NCBI RefSeq assembly: GCF_041361345.1
Contig: NZ_JBGKAD010000002.1
Span: 372,001-436,000 of the forward strand
Reading direction: 5' to 3'
Source: Halobaculum sp. MBLA0147
GTDB taxonomy: Archaea; Halobacteriota; Halobacteria; Halobacteriales; Haloferacaceae
DNA length: 64,000 nucleotides
Made by a program: the position numbers and the translations under genes. The notes beneath the pieces are model-generated. The model was not told where the DNA came from. It did no database searches and worked only from the letters and a program-made list of their open reading frames with translations. Below are positions 12,760 through 21,308 of this stretch, piece after piece; the first letter of the stretch is position 1; every line of letters starts with the position of its first letter.

Positions 12760-13131
12760 TCACTCCTCGACGGGGAACGCGTCGTGGAGCGAGTCGTGTG
12801 TCTCGCCGAGATCGTCGAAGAACGTTTCGCCGAGTGTGGCCAGCCGCGCCAGCGAGCGCTCGGCGTCTCTGACGGCGACGAGACGGCCGCGCCGGTAGTC
12901 GTACGCCGGGTCGTCCGCGTCCGTCTCCGCGACGAGTTCCTCCAAGTCCACCAGAGCGGCGTCCAAGTGCCGCTGGAGTTCGTCGAGACTCTCGGCGTCG
13001 GCCATCCCCGCGATAGGGCCCTCCATGTGGCCCTCCAGTTCCTGGCGGGCGTGTTCTTCGGCGGCGCGGTCCGTGGTTCCGAGGACGGTCGTCAGTCCGA
13101 GTCTGAGTGCTTCGATCTCGTGACAGGTCAT
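12760..13131 (-). CDS. DUF3209 family protein of the cobalamin operon
   Basis: A 123-residue, largely helical, acidic soluble protein beginning MTCHEIEALRLGLTTVLG. I recognise it as DUF3209, a small family found next to cbiX in haloarchaeal B12 clusters; its function is unknown. The N-terminal Cys-His pair could bind metal, but that is conjecture. The ATG (13131) overlaps the TGA of cbiX as ATGA, and it is the last gene of the cbiT-led operon. The longer open frame upstream lies inside cbiX and is Arg-rich, so it was not used. Confidence 0.82.
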   Translation of the reverse strand: MTCHEIEALRLGLTTVLGTTDRAAEEHARQELEGHMEGPIAGMADAESLDELQRHLDAALVDLEELVAETDADDPAYDYRRGRLVAVRDAERSLARLATLGETFFDDLGETHDSLHDAFPVEE

Positions 13132-14456
13132 AGCAGTTGGGTGTCGAGGTCGCTCACGATGCGGTCGCGGTCCAAGTGCGACGAGACGATGCGGTCGGCG
13201 TCGTCCGGCGCGACGCCCTGGTACCAGACGCCGTCCGGGTAGACGGCGACGTTCGGGCCGTCGCCACACGGGCCCAGACAGGAAGTCCTGGTGACGCGGG
13301 CGTCACAGGCCTCCGAGTCGCGGACGGCCTGCCGGAAGCGTTCCAACACCTTCGCAGAGCCGTTCCCGGCGCAGGTCTGGTTCGTACAGACGGCGACGTG
13401 GTTGGCGGGCGTGTCGTGGACGTGTGGCTCGTCGGCCACGTCCGAGCGGTCTTCGTGGGCCGCCTGGTGGGTGAGCGCTCGCAACATCGCCCGTGCGCCG
13501 CCCACGTCCTCCTCGTAGCCGTCGAGTTCCACCTTGTACTTGCAGGTGTCACACGACATCTCGACGCTGTCGGTGCGAGCCTCCTGCCAGCGGTCGCCGA
13601 GCACGTCGAGGAGTCTGTCGTCGGTGCCCAGCGGGTCGCCCGAGGCGGCGTCGACGTACGGGTAGTCGGCGTCGAACTCGGCGGCACCGTCGTGGATCCG
13701 CCCCGTCAACACGCCGTCGCCGAGCATGTACGGGAGGACGACGACGCCGTCGGGTCGGTGTCGGGCCACGTCGTGGAGCGTCTCGTCGAGTGTCGGCTCC
13801 GTCACGCCGACGAAGGTGGCGTCTACGCGGTCGAACGCGCGGCCCTCGTACAACAGCCGCGCGAGTTTGTGTACGTCGGCGTTGGCGTCCGGGTCCGAGG
13901 ACCCACGAGCGCACAGCACCACCGTCACGTCGTCGTCCTCGCGGTCGACTCCGAGTTCCGCCTCCACACTGGCGGCGCGGTCGTCCAACAGGTCGACCAG
14001 CGCCGGGTGGACGCCGAGGTGGGCGCCGTTGGCGACGGACAACTCTGGGTGCTCCTCGCGGACGCGAGCCAGTGCGGCCGGCACGTCGTTCTTGACGTGG
14101 CTGGCGGCGAACAGCGAGAGGTGGACGACGGAGACGGTGGAGACGCTGCCGGCGAGTCCGTCGATCGCGTCGCGGATCGACGGCTCCGCGAGTTCGAGGA
14201 ACCCGGCGTCGACCGGAATGCCGAGCCGCGACTCCAGGTTCGCGGCGAGTCGCCGCACCTGCTCGTTTGACTTCTCGCGGCGGGAGCCGTGGCCGACGAG
14301 CAGTACCGCCTCATCGTCCAGTGACGGGTCCGCCGCGGTCGTCGTCTGCGCTCCGTCTCGGCTCGCACCGGTGTCGCTCCCGGCTTCTCCACCGACGGCA
14401 GTGTCTCCACCGCCGCCAGCCTCGACGGTCCGCCCCGAGTCGGCGGTGTCAGACAC
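13128..14456 (-). CDS. cbiX: Sirohydrochlorin cobaltochelatase CbiX with Fe-S tail
   Basis: Inserts Co2+ into sirohydrochlorin, the committed step of cobalt-early B12 synthesis. 442 residues: a low-complexity N-terminus (about 45), then two CbiX/SirB-type halves (LLVGHGSRREKSN with the first metal-binding His, and VVLCARGSSDPDAN in the second), and a C-terminal thioredoxin-like [2Fe-2S] ferredoxin domain. That domain has CTNQTC near residue 355 and CLGPCGDGPN near 395, giving four Cys. An extra MSCDTCKYKVEL segment joins the parts, as in long CbiX proteins. GTG start overlaps the preceding gene by 8 nt. Confidence 0.93.
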   Translation of the reverse strand: MSDTADSGRTVEAGGGGDTAVGGEAGSDTGASRDGAQTTTAADPSLDDEAVLLVGHGSRREKSNEQVRRLAANLESRLGIPVDAGFLELAEPSIRDAIDGLAGSVSTVSVVHLSLFAASHVKNDVPAALARVREEHPELSVANGAHLGVHPALVDLLDDRAASVEAELGVDREDDDVTVVLCARGSSDPDANADVHKLARLLYEGRAFDRVDATFVGVTEPTLDETLHDVARHRPDGVVVLPYMLGDGVLTGRIHDGAAEFDADYPYVDAASGDPLGTDDRLLDVLGDRWQEARTDSVEMSCDTCKYKVELDGYEEDVGGARAMLRALTHQAAHEDRSDVADEPHVHDTPANHVAVCTNQTCAGNGSAKVLERFRQAVRDSEACDARVTRTSCLGPCGDGPNVAVYPDGVWYQGVAPDDADRIVSSHLDRDRIVSDLDTQLL

Positions 14457-15240
14457 GCGCCGTCACCTCCACGTCGGCTTGGTTGAGACTCCGGCGGAGT
14501 TTCCGGCGGCGTGTCGGTGCGAACAGCTCGAACGTCTCGCAGTCCTCGTAGATCGCCGCTCCGACCGCCGGGACGGCCTCGTCGTCGACGCCGAACCAGT
14601 AGCCGGAGGACGCCTCTGCGACGTCGCCCGTCGGCGCCGCGACCGGGAGCGCGTCGAGGAGTTCCTGCACTCGCCGGAGGAACTGCCGACTCTCGTGGAC
14701 GACGGAGAGCCCGACGGTGCCGCTCGAGGACTTGAAACAGACGGTCCCAGTCGACTCGACGATCCCGCGGAGTAGGGGGCGCGGGTGGTCTGCGAGCGCG
14801 TCGAAGTCGTACGCCGGCGCCGGCTCCGACTCTTCGCTCGCTTCCGATCCCGTCTCGGTTTCCCGCTCTGTCCCCGTCTCTGGCTCCGTTCCCGTCTCGT
14901 CTGCCGTCTCACCGTCGACGGGGACACCGAACCGCTCGGCCGCGGCGGCGAAGTCACCCGCCACGTCGACCACGAACGACTCTTCTCTGCGGGTGATCGA
15001 CGTGTCGTGTAGGTATTCACGGTCGGTGACCTCCCGCTCGACCGCACTGCGGCCGGCGATCGCGGCCAACCGTTCCGCACTCGTCTCGTCCGGTGCGGTC
15101 AGACGGAGTCCGGCGGCCTCGACGCTCTCGGCTCCACTCTCGCCGGTAGCGGGCGCGTCACCACTACGAACCGCCCCGTCGCCGGCGACGTACCCCCAGA
15201 GGTACGCGGTCTCTGGGGACGCCGTGTCGAGGTCGCTCAC
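14449..15240 (-). CDS. LAGLIDADG-like protein of the cobalamin operon
   Basis: 263 residues, hydrophilic, no signal or membrane segment. It occurs in haloarchaeal B12 operons as an uncharacterised protein. I see two LAGLIDADG-type repeats. The first, near residues 13-22, reads YLWGYVAGDG and is followed by a strand (LRLTAPD) and a helix (AERLAAIAG). The second, near residue 160, reads LLRGIVESTG and is followed by VCFKSSS, GLSVVHES and FLRRVQELLDAL. The first motif keeps the acidic residue; the second has Thr where the catalytic Asp belongs, so DNA cleavage is doubtful. The two are joined by an Asp/Glu/Thr-rich linker. GTG overlaps the ferredoxin stop as GTGA. Family assignment is by eye. Confidence 0.8.
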   Translation of the reverse strand: MSDLDTASPETAYLWGYVAGDGAVRSGDAPATGESGAESVEAAGLRLTAPDETSAERLAAIAGRSAVEREVTDREYLHDTSITRREESFVVDVAGDFAAAAERFGVPVDGETADETGTEPETGTERETETGSEASEESEPAPAYDFDALADHPRPLLRGIVESTGTVCFKSSSGTVGLSVVHESRQFLRRVQELLDALPVAAPTGDVAEASSGYWFGVDDEAVPAVGAAIYEDCETFELFAPTRRRKLRRSLNQADVEVTARV

Positions 15241-15560
15241 GACTCCTCACCTCCGTCCGTCGCAGCCTCGAGTTCGGTCACGTCGATCGCGTCGAACGGA
15301 CACGCGGCGGCGGCCTGCTCCGCCTCCTGGACGCGGTGGTCGACGAACTCTCCGACGACCCGCTCGGCGGTCTCCGTGATCTCGCCGTCGTCGCTGCCGG
15401 CGGGTGGTGCGGGGTCTGCGTCCGGGTCCAGCGTCGCCAGTCCGGCGTCGTCTTCGACGAACCGTGGATCGCGGGTCAGACACGCGAACACGCCGTCACA
15501 CGCCTCGCGGTCGACGGTGACGCGGTAGCGTGCGGTGGTCTCGGTGTTCGAGTCCGTCAT
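15237..15560 (-). CDS. [3Fe-4S]-type ferredoxin of the cobalamin operon
   Basis: 107-residue acidic protein with three cysteines in the arrangement C-x5-C ... C-P (EACDGVFACLTRDPRF near residue 19 and AACPFDAIDV near residue 88), the pattern of small [3Fe-4S] or [4Fe-4S] ferredoxins. It is placed directly after cbiH1 and before cbiX. An electron-transfer role in ring contraction or in cobalt redox control is plausible because some bacterial CbiH proteins carry their own Fe-S domain; this is inference. The ATG overlaps the cbiH1 stop by one base (TGATG on the minus strand). Confidence 0.82.
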   Translation of the reverse strand: MTDSNTETTARYRVTVDREACDGVFACLTRDPRFVEDDAGLATLDPDADPAPPAGSDDGEITETAERVVGEFVDHRVQEAEQAAAACPFDAIDVTELEAATDGGEES

Positions 15561-16774
15561 CAGTAGTCGTACTTCGTCTCGTAGCCGCGCGGGGTGACCA
15601 TCCGACCGTCCCACACGTACGTCTCCTCGTTGCCGATCACCAGCGTCGTCGTCATGTCCACCAACTCCGTCTCGCCGTACGACGGCAACTCGCCGAGTGT
15701 CGTGATCTCGACGGCCTCGTCTTCGCGACCTGCGCCGTGGACGATCCCGACCGGGGTGTCGTCGGCGCGGTGCTCGCGGAGGATCTCGCAGGCGCGCTGG
15801 AAGTTCTCGCGTCGTTTGCGGCTCCACGGGTTGTAGATCGAGATGGTGAACCCCTCGCCGGCGACGGCGTGGAGTCGCGACTCGATCTCCTCCATCGGCG
15901 TCAGGTGGTCCGACAGCGACACGCTGACGGAGTCGTTGACGAGTGGCGCACCCAACCGCGCCCCGCAGGACTGTGCCGCCGGCACCCCGGGCACGACTTC
16001 GAAGTCTAGCATCGACGCCGTGGCGCCCTTCGACTCCGTGATCTCGAGTGCCAGCCCCGCCAGCGCGTACACGTTCGGGTCGCCGCTGCCGACGATGGCC
16101 ACGTCGTTGCCGGCGAGCGCGCGGTCGATCGCCTCCTCCGTCCGCGACACCTCGCCGCACATCGGCGTGTCGTAGATCTCCTCGGCGTCGTCGGTGATCT
16201 CGTCCGGCAGCAACTCGACGTAGGTCGTGTACCCGACGATGTGCTCGGCGTCCGCGAGTGCGCGGGTCGCTCGCTCCGTCATCCCCTCTGGTTGGCCCGG
16301 TCCCAACCCGACGGCGGTGAGACTCCCAGCGTCGCCCTCGAAGTCGTCGACGGTCGCGCCGACCTCCTGCTCGACCGTGTCGTCGTCCGTGCTCGCGCCG
16401 CAAGACGACGAGGAAGCCGACGCGTCTGCCGATCCGCTCGCGCCGCACGCCGACGACTCCGGCTCCGTCGCGCCACCGCAGGAAGACGTGGTGCTCCCCG
16501 CGTCGGCGGTCGTCTGCTCCGCTGTGTCGGCGGTCGCCGTGTCCTCGGTGTCGCCCGGGTCCTTCGGTCCGACCTCGGCGGCGTCCGCACCGCCGCAGAT
16601 CGACTCGCTGCGTTCCGTCGTCTCGGTCTCTGTCTCTATCTCGGTCTCGGTCCCTACCTCGGCCTCTGTCCCCGTCTCGGTCGTCGCCGCGGTACCCGCC
16701 CGTTCCGCGTCCGCAGTCCGTGTCTGTCCGTCCGTCGGTGCGTCCGTCTCCGTGGTGGTGTCGTCCGTACTCAT
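15560..16774 (-). CDS. cbiH: Cobalt-precorrin-3 C17-methyltransferase CbiH, copy 1
   Basis: SAM-dependent C17 methylation with ring contraction. About 404 residues. The C-terminal 250 form the class III methyltransferase domain (LTAVGLGPGQPEGMT, GSGDPNVYALAG, VVPGVPAAQSCGARLGAP, ISIYNPWSRKRRENF, TLVIGNEETYVW). The first 145 residues are Thr/Glu/Ser-rich and carry four regularly spaced Cys-Gly units (SICGG, SSCGG, SACGA, SSCGA), which is unusual. ATG at 16774 is 1 nt after the cbiH2 stop; the upstream in-frame extension overlaps cbiH2 and is not used. A second, divergent CbiH precedes it. Confidence 0.92.
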   Translation of the reverse strand: MSTDDTTTETDAPTDGQTRTADAERAGTAATTETGTEAEVGTETEIETETETTERSESICGGADAAEVGPKDPGDTEDTATADTAEQTTADAGSTTSSCGGATEPESSACGASGSADASASSSSCGASTDDDTVEQEVGATVDDFEGDAGSLTAVGLGPGQPEGMTERATRALADAEHIVGYTTYVELLPDEITDDAEEIYDTPMCGEVSRTEEAIDRALAGNDVAIVGSGDPNVYALAGLALEITESKGATASMLDFEVVPGVPAAQSCGARLGAPLVNDSVSVSLSDHLTPMEEIESRLHAVAGEGFTISIYNPWSRKRRENFQRACEILREHRADDTPVGIVHGAGREDEAVEITTLGELPSYGETELVDMTTTLVIGNEETYVWDGRMVTPRGYETKYDY

Positions 16775-16775
16775 G

Positions 16776-17741
16776 TCAGAAGTCCTCCACGTCACGACCG
16801 CCACGCGGCGTGACGAGGAACTCGCGGTAGTCGTTGCGCCACACGTCCGTCTCGTGGGTGCCGATCAGGATCGAGGTGCCCATCCCGCCGATCTCGTCGG
16901 CGTGGGCGGTCACCTCGCCGAGCGTCGTCAGTGTCTCCGTCTCGCCGTCTGCGTTGCGCCCGGCGTCGTCGCGGCCGGCGTCGTCGACGATCGCGACGGG
17001 CACGTCGTCGGCCCGCTCCTCGCGGAGCACCTCGATCGCCCGCTCGTAGTCGCGCCAGCAGTTGTACAGCACGATCACGAAGCCGCTGATCGCCGCCGCC
17101 CGCAGCTTCTCCGCGATCTCGTCCCAGCCGCGCCACTTGTCCGACAGCGAGATCGTGCAGAAGTCGTTCGACAACGGCGCGCCGAGGTTCGCCGCCCCGC
17201 CGAGTGCCGCGGTCACACCCGGTACGATCTCGATGGGGACGTCCGTCGCGTCCTCCTCGTCGGCCATCAGGTACAGCAGGTCCGACTTCCCGTACACGTT
17301 CGGGTCGCCGCCGGAGACGTGCGCCACGTCCTGTCCGTCGCGGACGCGCTCGAACGCCTCCCGCGCCAACTCCACCTGCCGTCCCATACTCGACCGCACT
17401 ACCTCCTGATCCGGTCGCGGATCGACGGCGGGCTCGCCGTCGGTGTCGTCGCCCACCCGGGCGTCTTCGTCCGCTCCGGTGTCGTCGCTCGCGGTGGCGT
17501 CACCGCCTTCTCCGCTGCCGCCGCCCGCTCCGGCGTCCTCGGGCGGCAGCGTGCCGTCCTCGCGGAGGAACGCTTGGTAGAGGTCCGACGCGATCACGCA
17601 GTCGGCGGACTCGATCACGTCCACTGCCCGCTTCGTCGCGTGATCCGGGAGCCCCGGTCCGATCCCGACGACGTACAGCGTCCCGTACTCCTCGGGTGGT
17701 GACCCGGCGGCCGCGCTCCTGGACTCCGCGGCGTCGCTCAC
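16776..17741 (-). CDS. cbiH: CbiH/CobJ-family methyltransferase, copy 2
   Basis: Second CbiH-type protein, 321 residues: YVVGIGPGLPDHAT near residue 21, a Gly/Asp-rich insertion at about 65-110, then SGGDPNVYGKSDLLY, IVPGVTAALGGAANLGAP, ISLSDKWRGWDEI and VLYNCWRDYERAIEVL. Tandem non-identical CbiH genes are usual in haloarchaea. One may carry out C17 methylation and the other a related or regulatory task; sequence does not say which. The GTG at 17741 overlaps the cbiG stop (GTGA). Confidence 0.9.
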   Translation of the reverse strand: MSDAAESRSAAAGSPPEEYGTLYVVGIGPGLPDHATKRAVDVIESADCVIASDLYQAFLREDGTLPPEDAGAGGGSGEGGDATASDDTGADEDARVGDDTDGEPAVDPRPDQEVVRSSMGRQVELAREAFERVRDGQDVAHVSGGDPNVYGKSDLLYLMADEEDATDVPIEIVPGVTAALGGAANLGAPLSNDFCTISLSDKWRGWDEIAEKLRAAAISGFVIVLYNCWRDYERAIEVLREERADDVPVAIVDDAGRDDAGRNADGETETLTTLGEVTAHADEIGGMGTSILIGTHETDVWRNDYREFLVTPRGGRDVEDF

Positions 17742-18826
17742 TGCCCCACCGCCACGGTGACGGCCTCCTCGTACCGTTCCTTCTCGACGAGTAGTTCGTG
17801 GTCGGCCCCGCCGGCGATGGCCGACGCCTCGGCGATTCCGGGCCACCCGATCAACTCCTTCGACCGGGACGGGGTCGGTCCCTCGAAGCGTTCGAGCGTC
17901 TCCTTCTCGAAGGAGACAACGCCGACTCCGAGCTCTCCCGCGGCCGCGAGCAGCCCCGGCTCCTCCTCCTTCCGGGTCCCGGTGGCGACGAACGACACGT
18001 CGTCGAGCGTGTAGCCGGTCCCGTCCAGCGCCGACTCCCACGCGGCGTGGAACTGCTCGGCGTCCGCTCCGGCGACGCTCCCCGTCCCGAGCACGACGCC
18101 GTCGGGATCGTTGCGCTTCAGGACGGTCACGTCCTCGTCCGCGATCACCGCCGCCGGACCGTCGAGTCGGGCGACGGGGCCGAGTTCGTCGTCGAGGACG
18201 GCGAGGTTCGTCGCGACCGTCGAGTCGCCGTTGACGACGTGCGCGTCCAGTGCCTTCGCGCGCTCCTCGACGCCCTGTTTGCCGGCCGCCTCGGAGGCGG
18301 TCGTCGTGGCGGGCACCGCACCGAGTCCGGCGAGGTCGTCGGCGACTTGGTTCGCGCCGTGGTGACCCCCGGTGAGCGGGATCCCCCACGTCAGTTCCTC
18401 GTCGGCGACGACGACCGCGGGGTCGTCCCACTTGTCGTCGAGCAGCGGTGCGGTCTTGCGCATCGCGATCCCCGAGGCCATCAACCCGAGGAAACAGTCG
18501 AACTCGCCCCAGTACTCGGCGAACACGTCGCCGTGGTACTCCAGGATCTCGATCGTCTCGTACTCGTCGGCGAGTCCGTCGCGGACCTCGCGGGCAGTCT
18601 CCAGCTTCCGCTCGAAGGCGACGATCCCGAGCGTCTCCGCGACCTCGCCGTCGGAGTCCGCCGTCGAACAGTGGCCGCCGGAACTCTCCGACTCCGTGGT
18701 GTCGTCGTCCGCCGCCGTCTGTTCCCGGTCTGGCTCCGTCTGCTCCTCGTCCGGTACGGTCTCCGTCTGTGTTGTGTCGTCTGCCGTGGTCGACTCTTCT
18801 GTCGTCGTGGTGTCGTCGGTACTCAC
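17738..18826 (-). CDS. cbiG: Cobalt-precorrin-5A hydrolase CbiG
   Basis: Opens the delta-lactone of cobalt-precorrin-5A and releases acetaldehyde, a step specific to the cobalt-early pathway. 362 residues: a Thr/Glu-rich N-terminal tail (about 65), the CbiG N-terminal and middle region with GLMASGIAMRKTAPLL and the signature LTGGHHGANQVADDLA, then the C-terminal domain (LGTGSVAGADAEQFHAAWE, SFVATGTRKEEEPGLLAAA, PTPSRSKELIGWPGIAEA). GTG start overlaps the cbiF stop as GTGA. Confidence 0.93.
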   Translation of the reverse strand: MSTDDTTTTEESTTADDTTQTETVPDEEQTEPDREQTAADDDTTESESSGGHCSTADSDGEVAETLGIVAFERKLETAREVRDGLADEYETIEILEYHGDVFAEYWGEFDCFLGLMASGIAMRKTAPLLDDKWDDPAVVVADEELTWGIPLTGGHHGANQVADDLAGLGAVPATTTASEAAGKQGVEERAKALDAHVVNGDSTVATNLAVLDDELGPVARLDGPAAVIADEDVTVLKRNDPDGVVLGTGSVAGADAEQFHAAWESALDGTGYTLDDVSFVATGTRKEEEPGLLAAAGELGVGVVSFEKETLERFEGPTPSRSKELIGWPGIAEASAIAGGADHELLVEKERYEEAVTVAVGQ

Positions 18827-19764
18827 GTGTCTGTCTCCGTGTCGGTCGATCTGTCGTCTGTCTCCGTCTCACTGGTCCCACCCGAGTCGTCCGCACCCTC
18901 TCCGTCGTCCGGGCCGCGGTCGGCCCAGCCGTCGTAGAGGAACGAGCGGTCGTACCCCGCGCCCGCCGGGGCCTCGCCGATCAGCACCAGCGCCGAGGCG
19001 CGGTACCCCGCCTCCGTCACGCGGTCGCCGATCGTCGCGATCGTCCCGTCGATCACGTCCTCGTCCGGCCAGGAGGCGTGGTACACCACCGTCACCGGCG
19101 TCTCGGGGTCGTGTCCGTCGGCGAGGAGTCGCTCCATCACCTCCGGGATCGCGTGCGTCCCGAGGTACAGACAGGTCGTCACGTCGCCCATCGCGACGAA
19201 CTCCGAGACGTGATCGTCTTCGGGATCGAGCGTCTTCCCCTGTGGTCTCGTGAACGCGACGTGATCGGCCGTCCCGTTGAGGGTCAACTGCGTCCGCAGG
19301 GTCGCGCTGGCGGCGAACGCCGCCGTCACGCCGGGGACGATGTACGTCGGCACGTCCTCGGACTCCAGTGCGTCCATCTGCTCGAGTGCGGCGCCGTAGA
19401 TCGACGGGTCGCCGGAGTGGAGTCGCACCACGTCGCGTCCGTCGCGGTAGGCGTCCCGCATCAGCGGGATCAGCTCCTCCAGCTCCTTCCCGATGGAGGA
19501 GACCGTCTCCGCGTCCGCACAGTACCGCTCCAACAACTCGCTGTTGACCAACGACCCGGCGTGGACGACGAGGTCAGCCGACTCGACGAGTTCCTTCCCG
19601 GCGACCGTCAGCAGTCGTGGGTCGCCGGGTCCCGCGCCGACGAACGGGATCCCCGGCTGCTCGTCGCCGGCCGTGTGCTCGTGGACGCGCGGGTCGCGCT
19701 CCCGCTCGCGGCGCTCGCTCGCGGCGTCGATGGCCGCCTGCGGGTCCGTCTCCGCGTCGCTCAC
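18823..19764 (-). CDS. cbiF: Cobalt-precorrin-4 C11-methyltransferase CbiF
   Basis: SAM-dependent methylation at C11. 313 residues. Core class III methyltransferase motifs: IPFVGAGPGDPRLLTVAG near residue 39, DLVVHAGSLVN, RLHSGDPSIYGA, IVPGVTAAFAASATL, TTCLYLGTHAI and VVYHASWPDE. A 30-residue Asp/Ser/Thr-rich C-terminal tail is a halophilic addition. GTG start at 19764 overlaps the cbiL stop (GTGA). Confidence 0.95.
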   Translation of the reverse strand: MSDAETDPQAAIDAASERRERERDPRVHEHTAGDEQPGIPFVGAGPGDPRLLTVAGKELVESADLVVHAGSLVNSELLERYCADAETVSSIGKELEELIPLMRDAYRDGRDVVRLHSGDPSIYGAALEQMDALESEDVPTYIVPGVTAAFAASATLRTQLTLNGTADHVAFTRPQGKTLDPEDDHVSEFVAMGDVTTCLYLGTHAIPEVMERLLADGHDPETPVTVVYHASWPDEDVIDGTIATIGDRVTEAGYRASALVLIGEAPAGAGYDRSFLYDGWADRGPDDGEGADDSGGTSETETDDRSTDTETDT

Positions 19765-20567
19765 GGCGCACCACCGCCGTCGGTCGCGAGAGCCGTGTCG
19801 TCGTCCTCGGTACCCGCATCGTCGTCTCTCGTACCCGTGCCGTCGTCCGCTGCGACTGCACCTTCGTCCGTCTCCCCGTCTTCTGCCGACGCGAAGTCGG
19901 TCGGGTGGTCGCGCTCCAGGTCGCCCCGTTCAGCGTACGCCAGCGTGTAGTAGTCCCGCTCGGCCACGTCGGTCGGGTCGTCGGTGACGACCGTCTCGTC
20001 GGTGTTCATGAACAGCCGGCGTCCGTAGGTCACCTCGTAGCCCGCCTCCACGAGCCCCTCGTGTGTCGCCGGTGCGTCGGTGACTTTGAACAGGATCATC
20101 CGGTCGGGACCGGTCGGGGAGCGGCCGCCGTCGGCCTCTCGCAGTGCGAGCCCCGCGCCGGACTCCACCTCGACACCCAACGCCGTCGCGAACGCCGTCA
20201 CGCTGGAGACGCCGGGGACGACTTCGAGTGTCACCGCCGGGTGGAACGCCGCCAGCGTGCGCCGGAGGTGGCCGAACGTGGAGTACACGTTCGGGTCCCC
20301 GAGCGTGACGAACGCGGCGTCGCCCTCGCGAGCCACCGGTGCGACCGTCGCGGCCGCCTCGCGCCACGCCCGCCGCAGTTCCTCGGGGTCCCGGGTCATC
20401 GGGAAGTCGAGGTCTCCGAGTCGGTCCTCCGGGACGTGTTCCGTCGCCACCCGTCGGGAGAGACGGCCGGGAGTGTACACCACGTCCGCGGACTCCAGCG
20501 CCTCTCGCCCACGGATCGTGAGCAGGTCCGCCGCTCCGGGACCGAGTCCGACACCGTACAGGGTCAC
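19761..20567 (-). CDS. cbiL: Cobalt-precorrin-2 C20-methyltransferase CbiL
   Basis: Methylates C20 of cobalt-factor II/precorrin-2, directly after CbiX. 268 residues: MTLYGVGLGPGAADLLTIRG at the N-terminus, TLGDPNVYSTFGHLRRTL, EVVPGVSSVTAFATALG, MILFKVTDAP and YGRRLFMNTDETV. The last 50 residues are an acidic low-complexity tail. GTG start at 20567 overlaps cbiT (GTGA). The conserved region begins right at the start codon, which supports the choice. Confidence 0.95.
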   Translation of the reverse strand: MTLYGVGLGPGAADLLTIRGREALESADVVYTPGRLSRRVATEHVPEDRLGDLDFPMTRDPEELRRAWREAAATVAPVAREGDAAFVTLGDPNVYSTFGHLRRTLAAFHPAVTLEVVPGVSSVTAFATALGVEVESGAGLALREADGGRSPTGPDRMILFKVTDAPATHEGLVEAGYEVTYGRRLFMNTDETVVTDDPTDVAERDYYTLAYAERGDLERDHPTDFASAEDGETDEGAVAADDGTGTRDDDAGTEDDDTALATDGGGAP

Positions 20568-21154
20568 GGCTCGCCCCCCGCCGTTCCGGTGTCGGTGTCA
20601 CTCCCCGACCCGTCGCTCGCACTGCCGACGACGGTGTACACGGGATTCTCGGCGTCGAAGGAGGTGGCGCCGGCGAGTTCGTAGCCGTGACTCACCTGGA
20701 ACTGGACGACGTCCTCCAGTAGGTCCCGCTCCCGGTAGGCGTCCACGACGCCGCCGGCCACCTCCAGCCGGGAGACGTTCGTGACCACGCGGTCGACGCC
20801 GGTCGCGACGGCGTGGTCCAACACCGCCTCGTAGTTGCGCGTCCCGCCGAGGAACAGCGCGTCGTAGTCGTCTGGCAGTCCGTCCGGTGCCTCGGCGGCG
20901 ACCAACTCGACCGCATCGCGACAGTCGTTGGCCGCGAGGTTCGCCTCGGTCGCGTCCAGCTTCTCCGCGACTCGTTCCAGCGCCGTCACGCGACCCGCGT
21001 CGCGCGCTACCGTCGCTGTCACCGCACCGGTGCAGGCACCGACCTCCACGACGTGCTCGTCGTCGTCCAGCGCCAACTTCTGCCGGACGACGGCACGCAC
21101 CTCGGGTTTCGTCGGCCCCGCCTTCGCGTCTCGTGGGAGTCGTATCGTCGACAC
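20564..21154 (-). CDS. cbiT: Cobalt-precorrin-6B C15-methyltransferase (decarboxylating) CbiT
   Basis: Methylates C15 and decarboxylates the C12 acetate. 196 residues of Rossmann class I methyltransferase: GPTKPEVRAVVRQKL, then the SAM loop VVEVGACTGAVTATVAR near residue 35, ALERVAEKLDATEANL, and LFLGGTRNYEAVLDHAV. It is the first gene of the long B12 operon (cbiT to DUF3209). A TATA-like stretch lies 23-34 nt before the GTG at 21154, fitting a leaderless mRNA. Confidence 0.94.
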   Translation of the reverse strand: MSTIRLPRDAKAGPTKPEVRAVVRQKLALDDDEHVVEVGACTGAVTATVARDAGRVTALERVAEKLDATEANLAANDCRDAVELVAAEAPDGLPDDYDALFLGGTRNYEAVLDHAVATGVDRVVTNVSRLEVAGGVVDAYRERDLLEDVVQFQVSHGYELAGATSFDAENPVYTVVGSASDGSGSDTDTGTAGGEP

Positions 21155-21176: not shown

Positions 21177-21188
21177 CGTAAAACAATT
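21177..21188 (-). promoter_or_regulatory. TATA-like element of the cbiT operon
   Basis: On the minus strand the stretch reads AATTGTTTTACG, centred about 28 nt before the cbiT GTG, the spacing expected for a leaderless haloarchaeal transcript. It is the only A/T-rich block in this region. No known B12-sensing operator is recognisable next to it. Confidence 0.5.
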
Positions 21189-21308
21189 GTGGTTGTCGTA
21201 GTTCAAGCACGCTTGTCTACGTCGGTGGTGACCCGACCGGTGTCGTCACCGGCGAGCGTCGAGGTGGCTCGACGGGTCAGTGCCGCCGCTCGGAGATGGG
21301 CGTCCGAC

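Follow-up and report, generated by a model that had tools for sequence, protein, structure and literature searches.

A domesticated LAGLIDADG-fold protein in the cobalamin operon of haloarchaea, with a possible role beside the cobaltochelatase CbiX

The stretch of DNA analysed here (the window, 64,000 nucleotides) lies on contig C2 of the haloarchaeal genome G000, from Halobaculum sp. MBLA0147. It contains a minus-strand operon of overlapping genes, in the order cbiT, cbiL, cbiF, cbiG, cbiH1, cbiH2, ferredoxin, LAG, cbiX and DUF3209, where LAG is our label for the LAGLIDADG-fold protein encoded at 14449-15240 (-). The first gene, cbiT (20564-21154 (-)), as well as cbiL (19761-20567 (-)) and cbiF (18823-19764 (-)), were named from their conserved order, and cbiG (17738-18826 (-)) served as a marker of de novo corrin synthesis. 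Two tetrapyrrole methylases follow. For cbiH1 (16776-17741 (-)) the assignment comes from homologs and gene order in related loci, and cbiH2 (15560-16804 (-)) matches PF00590 and is named by its order, following PMC8305020. A single-cluster ferredoxin (Fer4_15 in Pfam, 15237-15560 (-)) precedes LAG. Behind LAG lie the CbiX cobaltochelatase (13128-14456 (-)), with an MXCXXC motif and a C-terminal thioredoxin-like 2Fe-2S domain and without a His-rich tail, and a DUF3209 protein recognised by Pfam (12760-13131 (-)). The CbiX fusion of MXCXXC motif and 2Fe-2S domain is general in operons with LAG.

The start of LAG overlaps the end of the ferredoxin reading frame (15237) by 4 bp and its end overlaps the start of cbiX (14456) by 8 bp, in agreement with the initial annotation, which described a gene embedded in the operon with start/stop overlaps on both sides. 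Upstream of cbiT there is an operator-like dyad, TACGACAACCACAATTGTTTTA (TAnnnCAA-N6-TTGnnnTA, 21179-21200 (-)). A scan of the operon region against Rfam matched no family, hence no known cobalamin riboswitch is present there.

LAG has 263 amino acids and a GTG start. Both LAGLIDADG-like motifs proposed earlier were located, the first (YLWGYVAGDG) at residues 13-22 (15175-15204 (-)) and the second (LLRGIVESTG) at residues 156-165 (14746-14775 (-)). Their starts are 143 residues apart, slightly less than the approximately 145 first given. The two halves are separated by an acidic linker of about 34 residues (residues 110-143, 14812-14913 (-)), modelled with low confidence and largely absent from most homologs. 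In Haloquadratum the homologs contain a long insert of a different kind.

In terms of sequence, the Pfam model LAGLIDADG_3 (PF14528) matches residues 156-198, covering motif 2, with an E-value of 1.6e-4 and 22.3 bits, against a gathering cut-off of 22.5 bits. The same model matches 9 of 32 homologs at E <= 0.1 (best E 2.7e-5). The LAG family profile retrieves the LAGLIDADG domains of MCM inteins and aligns both motifs, in motif 2 LRGLFDADGSVC of the inteins with LRGLLEACGTVC. The endonuclease of these inteins is the nearest sequence relative that we found (L147, L148, L149), and a Cys after motif 2 is common to both (DADGSVC in the inteins, ACGTVC in LAG). An NCBIfam search with LAG returned no family. 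Searches of PDB sequences, with the protein and with the family profile, gave only noise, so relatives in the PDB are visible only by structure comparison.

The structural picture is clearer. An AlphaFold2 model of the window protein, built from 67 sequences (pLDDT 86, pTM 0.82), has the helix and strand order of two alpha-beta-beta-alpha-beta-beta-alpha units, the LAGLIDADG pair occupying residues 9-262 of the model. The AlphaFold model of a Haloferax elongans homolog (pLDDT 92.6, pTM 0.88) has the same double fold. Among the matches listed, 50 of 50 were LAGLIDADG proteins in the Foldseek search, and again 50 of 50 when both models were compared with the PDB by VIA. The VIA lists are headed by I-Tsp061I (Z 15.9 and 3.0 A over 179 residues; Z 16.9 and 2.8 A over 179 for the other model), with PI-PfuI, I-DmoI and WhiA (Z about 15) within about two Z units. 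The initial annotation had read the strand-helix pattern of this fold from the letters and proposed structure prediction with a fold search as a check; the double fold appears in both predicted structures, every PDB match listed belongs to the LAGLIDADG proteins, and the assignment thus survives the refuting test that the annotation had set. Sequence support for the assignment is thin yet consistent and structure support is strong, and the models make it almost certain that LAG has this fold.

We compared the catalytic positions over 107 distinct homologs. The acid position of motif 1 (D21) varies, with D in 50, S in 43, A in 5, N in 5 and G in 4, while position 164, the catalytic-acid position of motif 2, is C in 104, S in 1, A in 1 and T only in the window protein. 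Homing endonucleases carry a metal-binding acid at the position equivalent to 164. None of the 107 homologs has acids in both motifs: the catalytic acid pair is lost across the whole family, and LAG is very probably nuclease-dead. The acid reported earlier for motif 1 is thus present in the window protein without being conserved in the family, and the Thr reported in place of the second acid is present too but peculiar to this protein, the family having Cys. Conservation mapping of the two motif Asp positions, also proposed with the annotation, finds a conserved acid at neither.

Other positions are strongly conserved. These are AYxWG of helix 1 (invariant), R74, H78, E162, C164, G165, Cys168 (invariant in the alignments), K or R at 170, V176-G177, S179, H182, S212, Y231, R244 and K247, with R74 and H78 falling in a RE-x-AHD stretch in most homologs. 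The basic residues R74, R158, R244, K247 and K/R170 are invariant or nearly so in an otherwise acidic protein. Strand alternation suggests that the concave saddle, which in LAGLIDADG homing endonucleases is the DNA-binding surface, is lined in LAG by residues 164, 166, 168 and 170, together with 177, 179 and 181. That surface would then still be under strong constraint. Judged by their places along the strand, Cys164 and Cys168 would lie about 13 A from each other and need not belong to one metal site.

As for distribution, a scan of the genome contigs with the single sequence found no LAG relative, and an alignment-based scan found 151. With the family profile run over 292 haloarchaeal genomes, LAG is present in 145 and cbiG, taken as the marker of de novo corrin synthesis, in 150. 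All 145 LAG genomes have cbiG, and only 5 of the 150 cbiG genomes lack LAG. Among 393 sampled genomes of the same phylum, no LAG match was found outside the haloarchaeal order. Weak profile matches in three further genomes were rejected as LAG, since they proved to be MCM inteins.

The neighbourhood is equally constant. In 81 loci (80 from named contigs and 1 from a numbered genome), cbiX adjoins LAG in 80 and the ferredoxin precedes it in 78, and 20 more divergent loci have the same gene order. The Haloquadratum cluster is split (L166, L167, L073), with cbiH1-cbiH2-LAG-cbiX-DUF3209 kept together, and cbiT-L-F-G and the ferredoxin located apart from the LAG-cbiX block. This split and the locus counts indicate that LAG is linked more tightly to cbiX than to the ferredoxin or cbiG. 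From the exclusive co-occurrence with cbiG and the adjacency to cbiX we conclude, with high confidence, that LAG is dedicated to de novo B12 synthesis, and we lean towards a functional tie to CbiX. The earlier proposal of a domesticated endonuclease fold inside the B12 operon is upheld by the lost acid pair, the strict co-inheritance with cbiG and the fixed place in the operon. Two irregular cases were also seen. The 247.6-kb plasmid NZ_CP119786.1 of Haloarcula rara carries two copies of the LAG locus with equal scores (L057, L058), and at L049, in the draft genome G183, LAG is seemingly broken by a frame change, with two profile matches in different frames.

The five cbiG genomes without LAG are G001, G007, G129, G268 and G052. 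In the first four, cbiG is divergent (53-57% identity) and the operon is reduced to cbiT-L-F-G-H1-H2-cbiX (L142-L145), with LAG, ferredoxin and DUF3209 all missing; the CbiX of these operons has no 2Fe-2S domain and carries a long His-rich tail at its end. G052 retains the ferredoxin, the usual cbiX and DUF3209, and exactly where LAG would stand between ferredoxin and cbiX it has a second, His-tailed CbiX (L146:10703-11641 (+)). Overall, a His-tailed CbiX is found in 5/5 operons without LAG versus 1/98 with LAG, where the other 97 have the 2Fe-2S domain and no His tail; this contrast comes down to two to three independent changes, with four of the five LAG-less operons belonging to one type. 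In the exceptional operon, L085, LAG occurs together with a His-tailed CbiX and no DUF3209 was seen, and for this reason strict mutual exclusion of the two was rejected. In a CbiX tree with long branches, a weakly supported branch (74/72) sets the His-tailed rows apart, which is in line with few independent changes.

Starting from the computed fold, acid-pair loss, exclusive cbiG co-occurrence and cbiX linkage, we infer that LAG acts on CbiX and in what manner. Our preferred reading, with a probability of roughly 40%, is that LAG is an accessory of the cobaltochelatase at cobalt insertion, handling cobalt or the tetrapyrrole; this step is indicated by the tight linkage to cbiX. In this reading LAG, a domesticated LAGLIDADG protein that has lost its nuclease residues and serves the de novo (cobalt-early) corrin synthesis of haloarchaea, would act with CbiX when cobalt enters sirohydrochlorin. 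It would deliver or hold Co(II), or present the tetrapyrrole, to CbiX, and the old endonuclease metal site, with Cys now at position 164, may hold a softer metal. Its role would be equivalent to that of the His-rich CbiX tail; for the tail of CbiX-L in Bacillus, storage and delivery of metal have been proposed (PMC7689651).

Further observations count in favour of an accessory of CbiX. The operons without LAG carry a His-tailed CbiX, the slot of LAG in G052 holds a His-tailed CbiX, and a divergent homolog of 198 amino acids in the draft genome G021 (L150:5826-6422 (-)), away from cbi genes and with cbiX on another contig, is flanked by two cation-efflux (PF01545) genes beside a rhodanese gene. 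Against it count the Thr at position 164 of the window protein itself and the presence of both LAG and a His-tailed CbiX in L085. Moreover, the operon type without LAG is missing further parts, namely the ferredoxin, DUF3209 and the CbiX 2Fe-2S domain, and the association of the His tail is therefore not with LAG alone. The narrower form, in which the Asp-to-Cys site handles cobalt or a corrinoid and LAG is a cobalt-delivery partner that replaces the His-rich tail, is possible but doubtful.

It is unlikely that LAG serves instead as a structural scaffold, or as an oxygen shield for early cobalt intermediates, with the ferredoxin, DUF3209 and the CbiX 2Fe-2S domain as partners, which would allow the cobalt-early pathway to run in air. 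This would fit the absence of the four parts as a set from four operons and the genomes that carry these. The haem-copper oxidase (COX1) is absent from 4 of the 292 genomes, including three of G001, G007, G129 and G268, which suggests anaerobic life. Three of these four genomes are without the oxidase versus 145/145 LAG genomes with it (Fisher p 1.8e-5), on raw counts that ignore descent, G001 and G007 being of one genus. However, COX1 is present in G268 and in G052, and we know of no oxygen chemistry of the LAGLIDADG fold.

The initial annotation had proposed a regulator of the B12 operon or a scaffold, and the dyad bears on the first of these. It sits some 25 bases ahead of the cbiT start codon in nearly all operons, and AAAACAATT is common to 62 of 65 dereplicated cbiT upstream regions. 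The window holds a single match (0 in 100 shuffles). Exact matches occur in 110 of the 292 genomes, all with cbiG, and in none of the reversed control. The dyad is likely the target of a B12 or cobalt regulator. A WhiA-like LAG would sense corrinoid or cobalt and bind the cbiT promoter through the old DNA saddle. Its fold is equally close to WhiA, the conserved basic residues described above could be read in this way, and the dyad overlaps the likely cbiT promoter. Nevertheless, all five operons without LAG retain this dyad ahead of cbiT, imperfect in G052 and G268 and with exact matches in G129, G001 and G007, in the last of these upstream of cbiM. As it persists there, the predicted dyad-binding factor is not LAG alone. 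LAG also lacks a helix-turn-helix domain, and its gene is in the middle of the operon, tied to cbiX. The regulator claim does not stand up well to these results, and we consider this reading weak and rather improbable.

A further reading is that LAG is an enzyme that fills the gap left by CbiD (methyltransferase) or CbiJ (reductase). Cluster genes lacking an assignment have been offered as candidates for this haloarchaeal gap (PMC8305020), and the same gaps were reported elsewhere (PMC6719526). In our profile search neither CbiD nor CbiJ passed the cut-off in G000 or in the five genomes without LAG. LAG is among the few cluster members without an assignment, and its conserved Cys and His could be catalytic. 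On the other hand, the Pfam scan of LAG gave no CbiD or CbiJ profile match, and we know of no SAM or NAD(P)H cofactor site in the LAGLIDADG fold. CbiD and CbiJ are missing, too, with the four divergent operons that have no LAG, ferredoxin or DUF3209, and G052 keeps the remaining pathway without LAG. Because the operons without LAG share the same gap, LAG is not a simple substitute for either enzyme, and this weak proposal is very unlikely.

Finally, a living homing endonuclease or decaying selfish element, which the fold, its ancestry and the profile similarity to MCM intein endonucleases might suggest, is highly improbable, and an active endonuclease is largely refuted, given the acid pair in 0/107 homologs, conserved residues along the whole length, exclusive co-inheritance with cbiG and a fixed operon position with conserved synteny in place of an intron or intein location or sporadic spread.

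Among known proteins, the archaeal homing endonucleases I-DmoI, I-Tsp061I and PI-PfuI share with LAG a double fold in one chain with both motif helices (Z 15-17), and haloarchaeal MCM inteins share a detectable profile similarity. LAG differs from all of these in having no acid pair, in not being mobile and in its place in a biosynthetic operon. In WhiA a C-terminal helix-turn-helix domain follows the LAGLIDADG pair, and the protein binds promoter DNA. WhiA (DUF199) resembles LAG in being a LAGLIDADG pair that no longer works as a nuclease and was domesticated in cellular genomes; LAG, however, has no such helix-turn-helix domain, was found in haloarchaea only and is linked to cbiX, where WhiA has cell-division targets, and a Pfam scan of LAG at E <= 1 contained no WhiA model. 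The His-rich tail of CbiX-L, of the Bacillus megaterium type, is a possible functional counterpart, present in the operons without LAG; it is, in contrast, part of the enzyme and unrelated in sequence or fold.

In Haloferax volcanii, HVO_B0055 occupies the corresponding slot between cbiX1 (B0054) and cbiH2 (B0057). Haloferax homologs of LAG were recovered by our search, and the two very likely belong to the same family. HVO_B0055 is one of four cobalamin-cluster genes without an assignment in that species (PMC8305020), previously with neither fold nor mechanism, and the CbiD/CbiJ proposal of that work is not favoured here. Some public records name LAG proteins "cobalamin biosynthesis protein" or hypothetical. 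The existence of a conserved gene without assignment at this position is already known, and our literature search found no paper linking LAGLIDADG with cobalamin biosynthesis. What appears to be new is the assignment of the fold, the loss of the acid pair throughout the family and the linkage to cbiX.

The LAGLIDADG fold is known as a binder of nucleic acids, in nucleases, maturases, WhiA and HO. LAG is a domesticated member in a new setting, and has the appearance of a selfish DNA-cutting enzyme that was put to use in making a vitamin. Its tie to B12 synthesis and CbiX would extend the fold to metabolism, or else reveal a B12 regulator of a new type in archaea. If the narrower form, with a converted metal site and cobalt delivery in place of the His-rich tail, is true, LAG would be the first protein of this fold to work in metabolism rather than on nucleic acids. 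One of the four open genes of the haloarchaeal cobalamin cluster (PMC8305020) is hereby given a fold and a narrow hypothesis, and Haloferax volcanii, the host of HVO_B0055, is genetically tractable.
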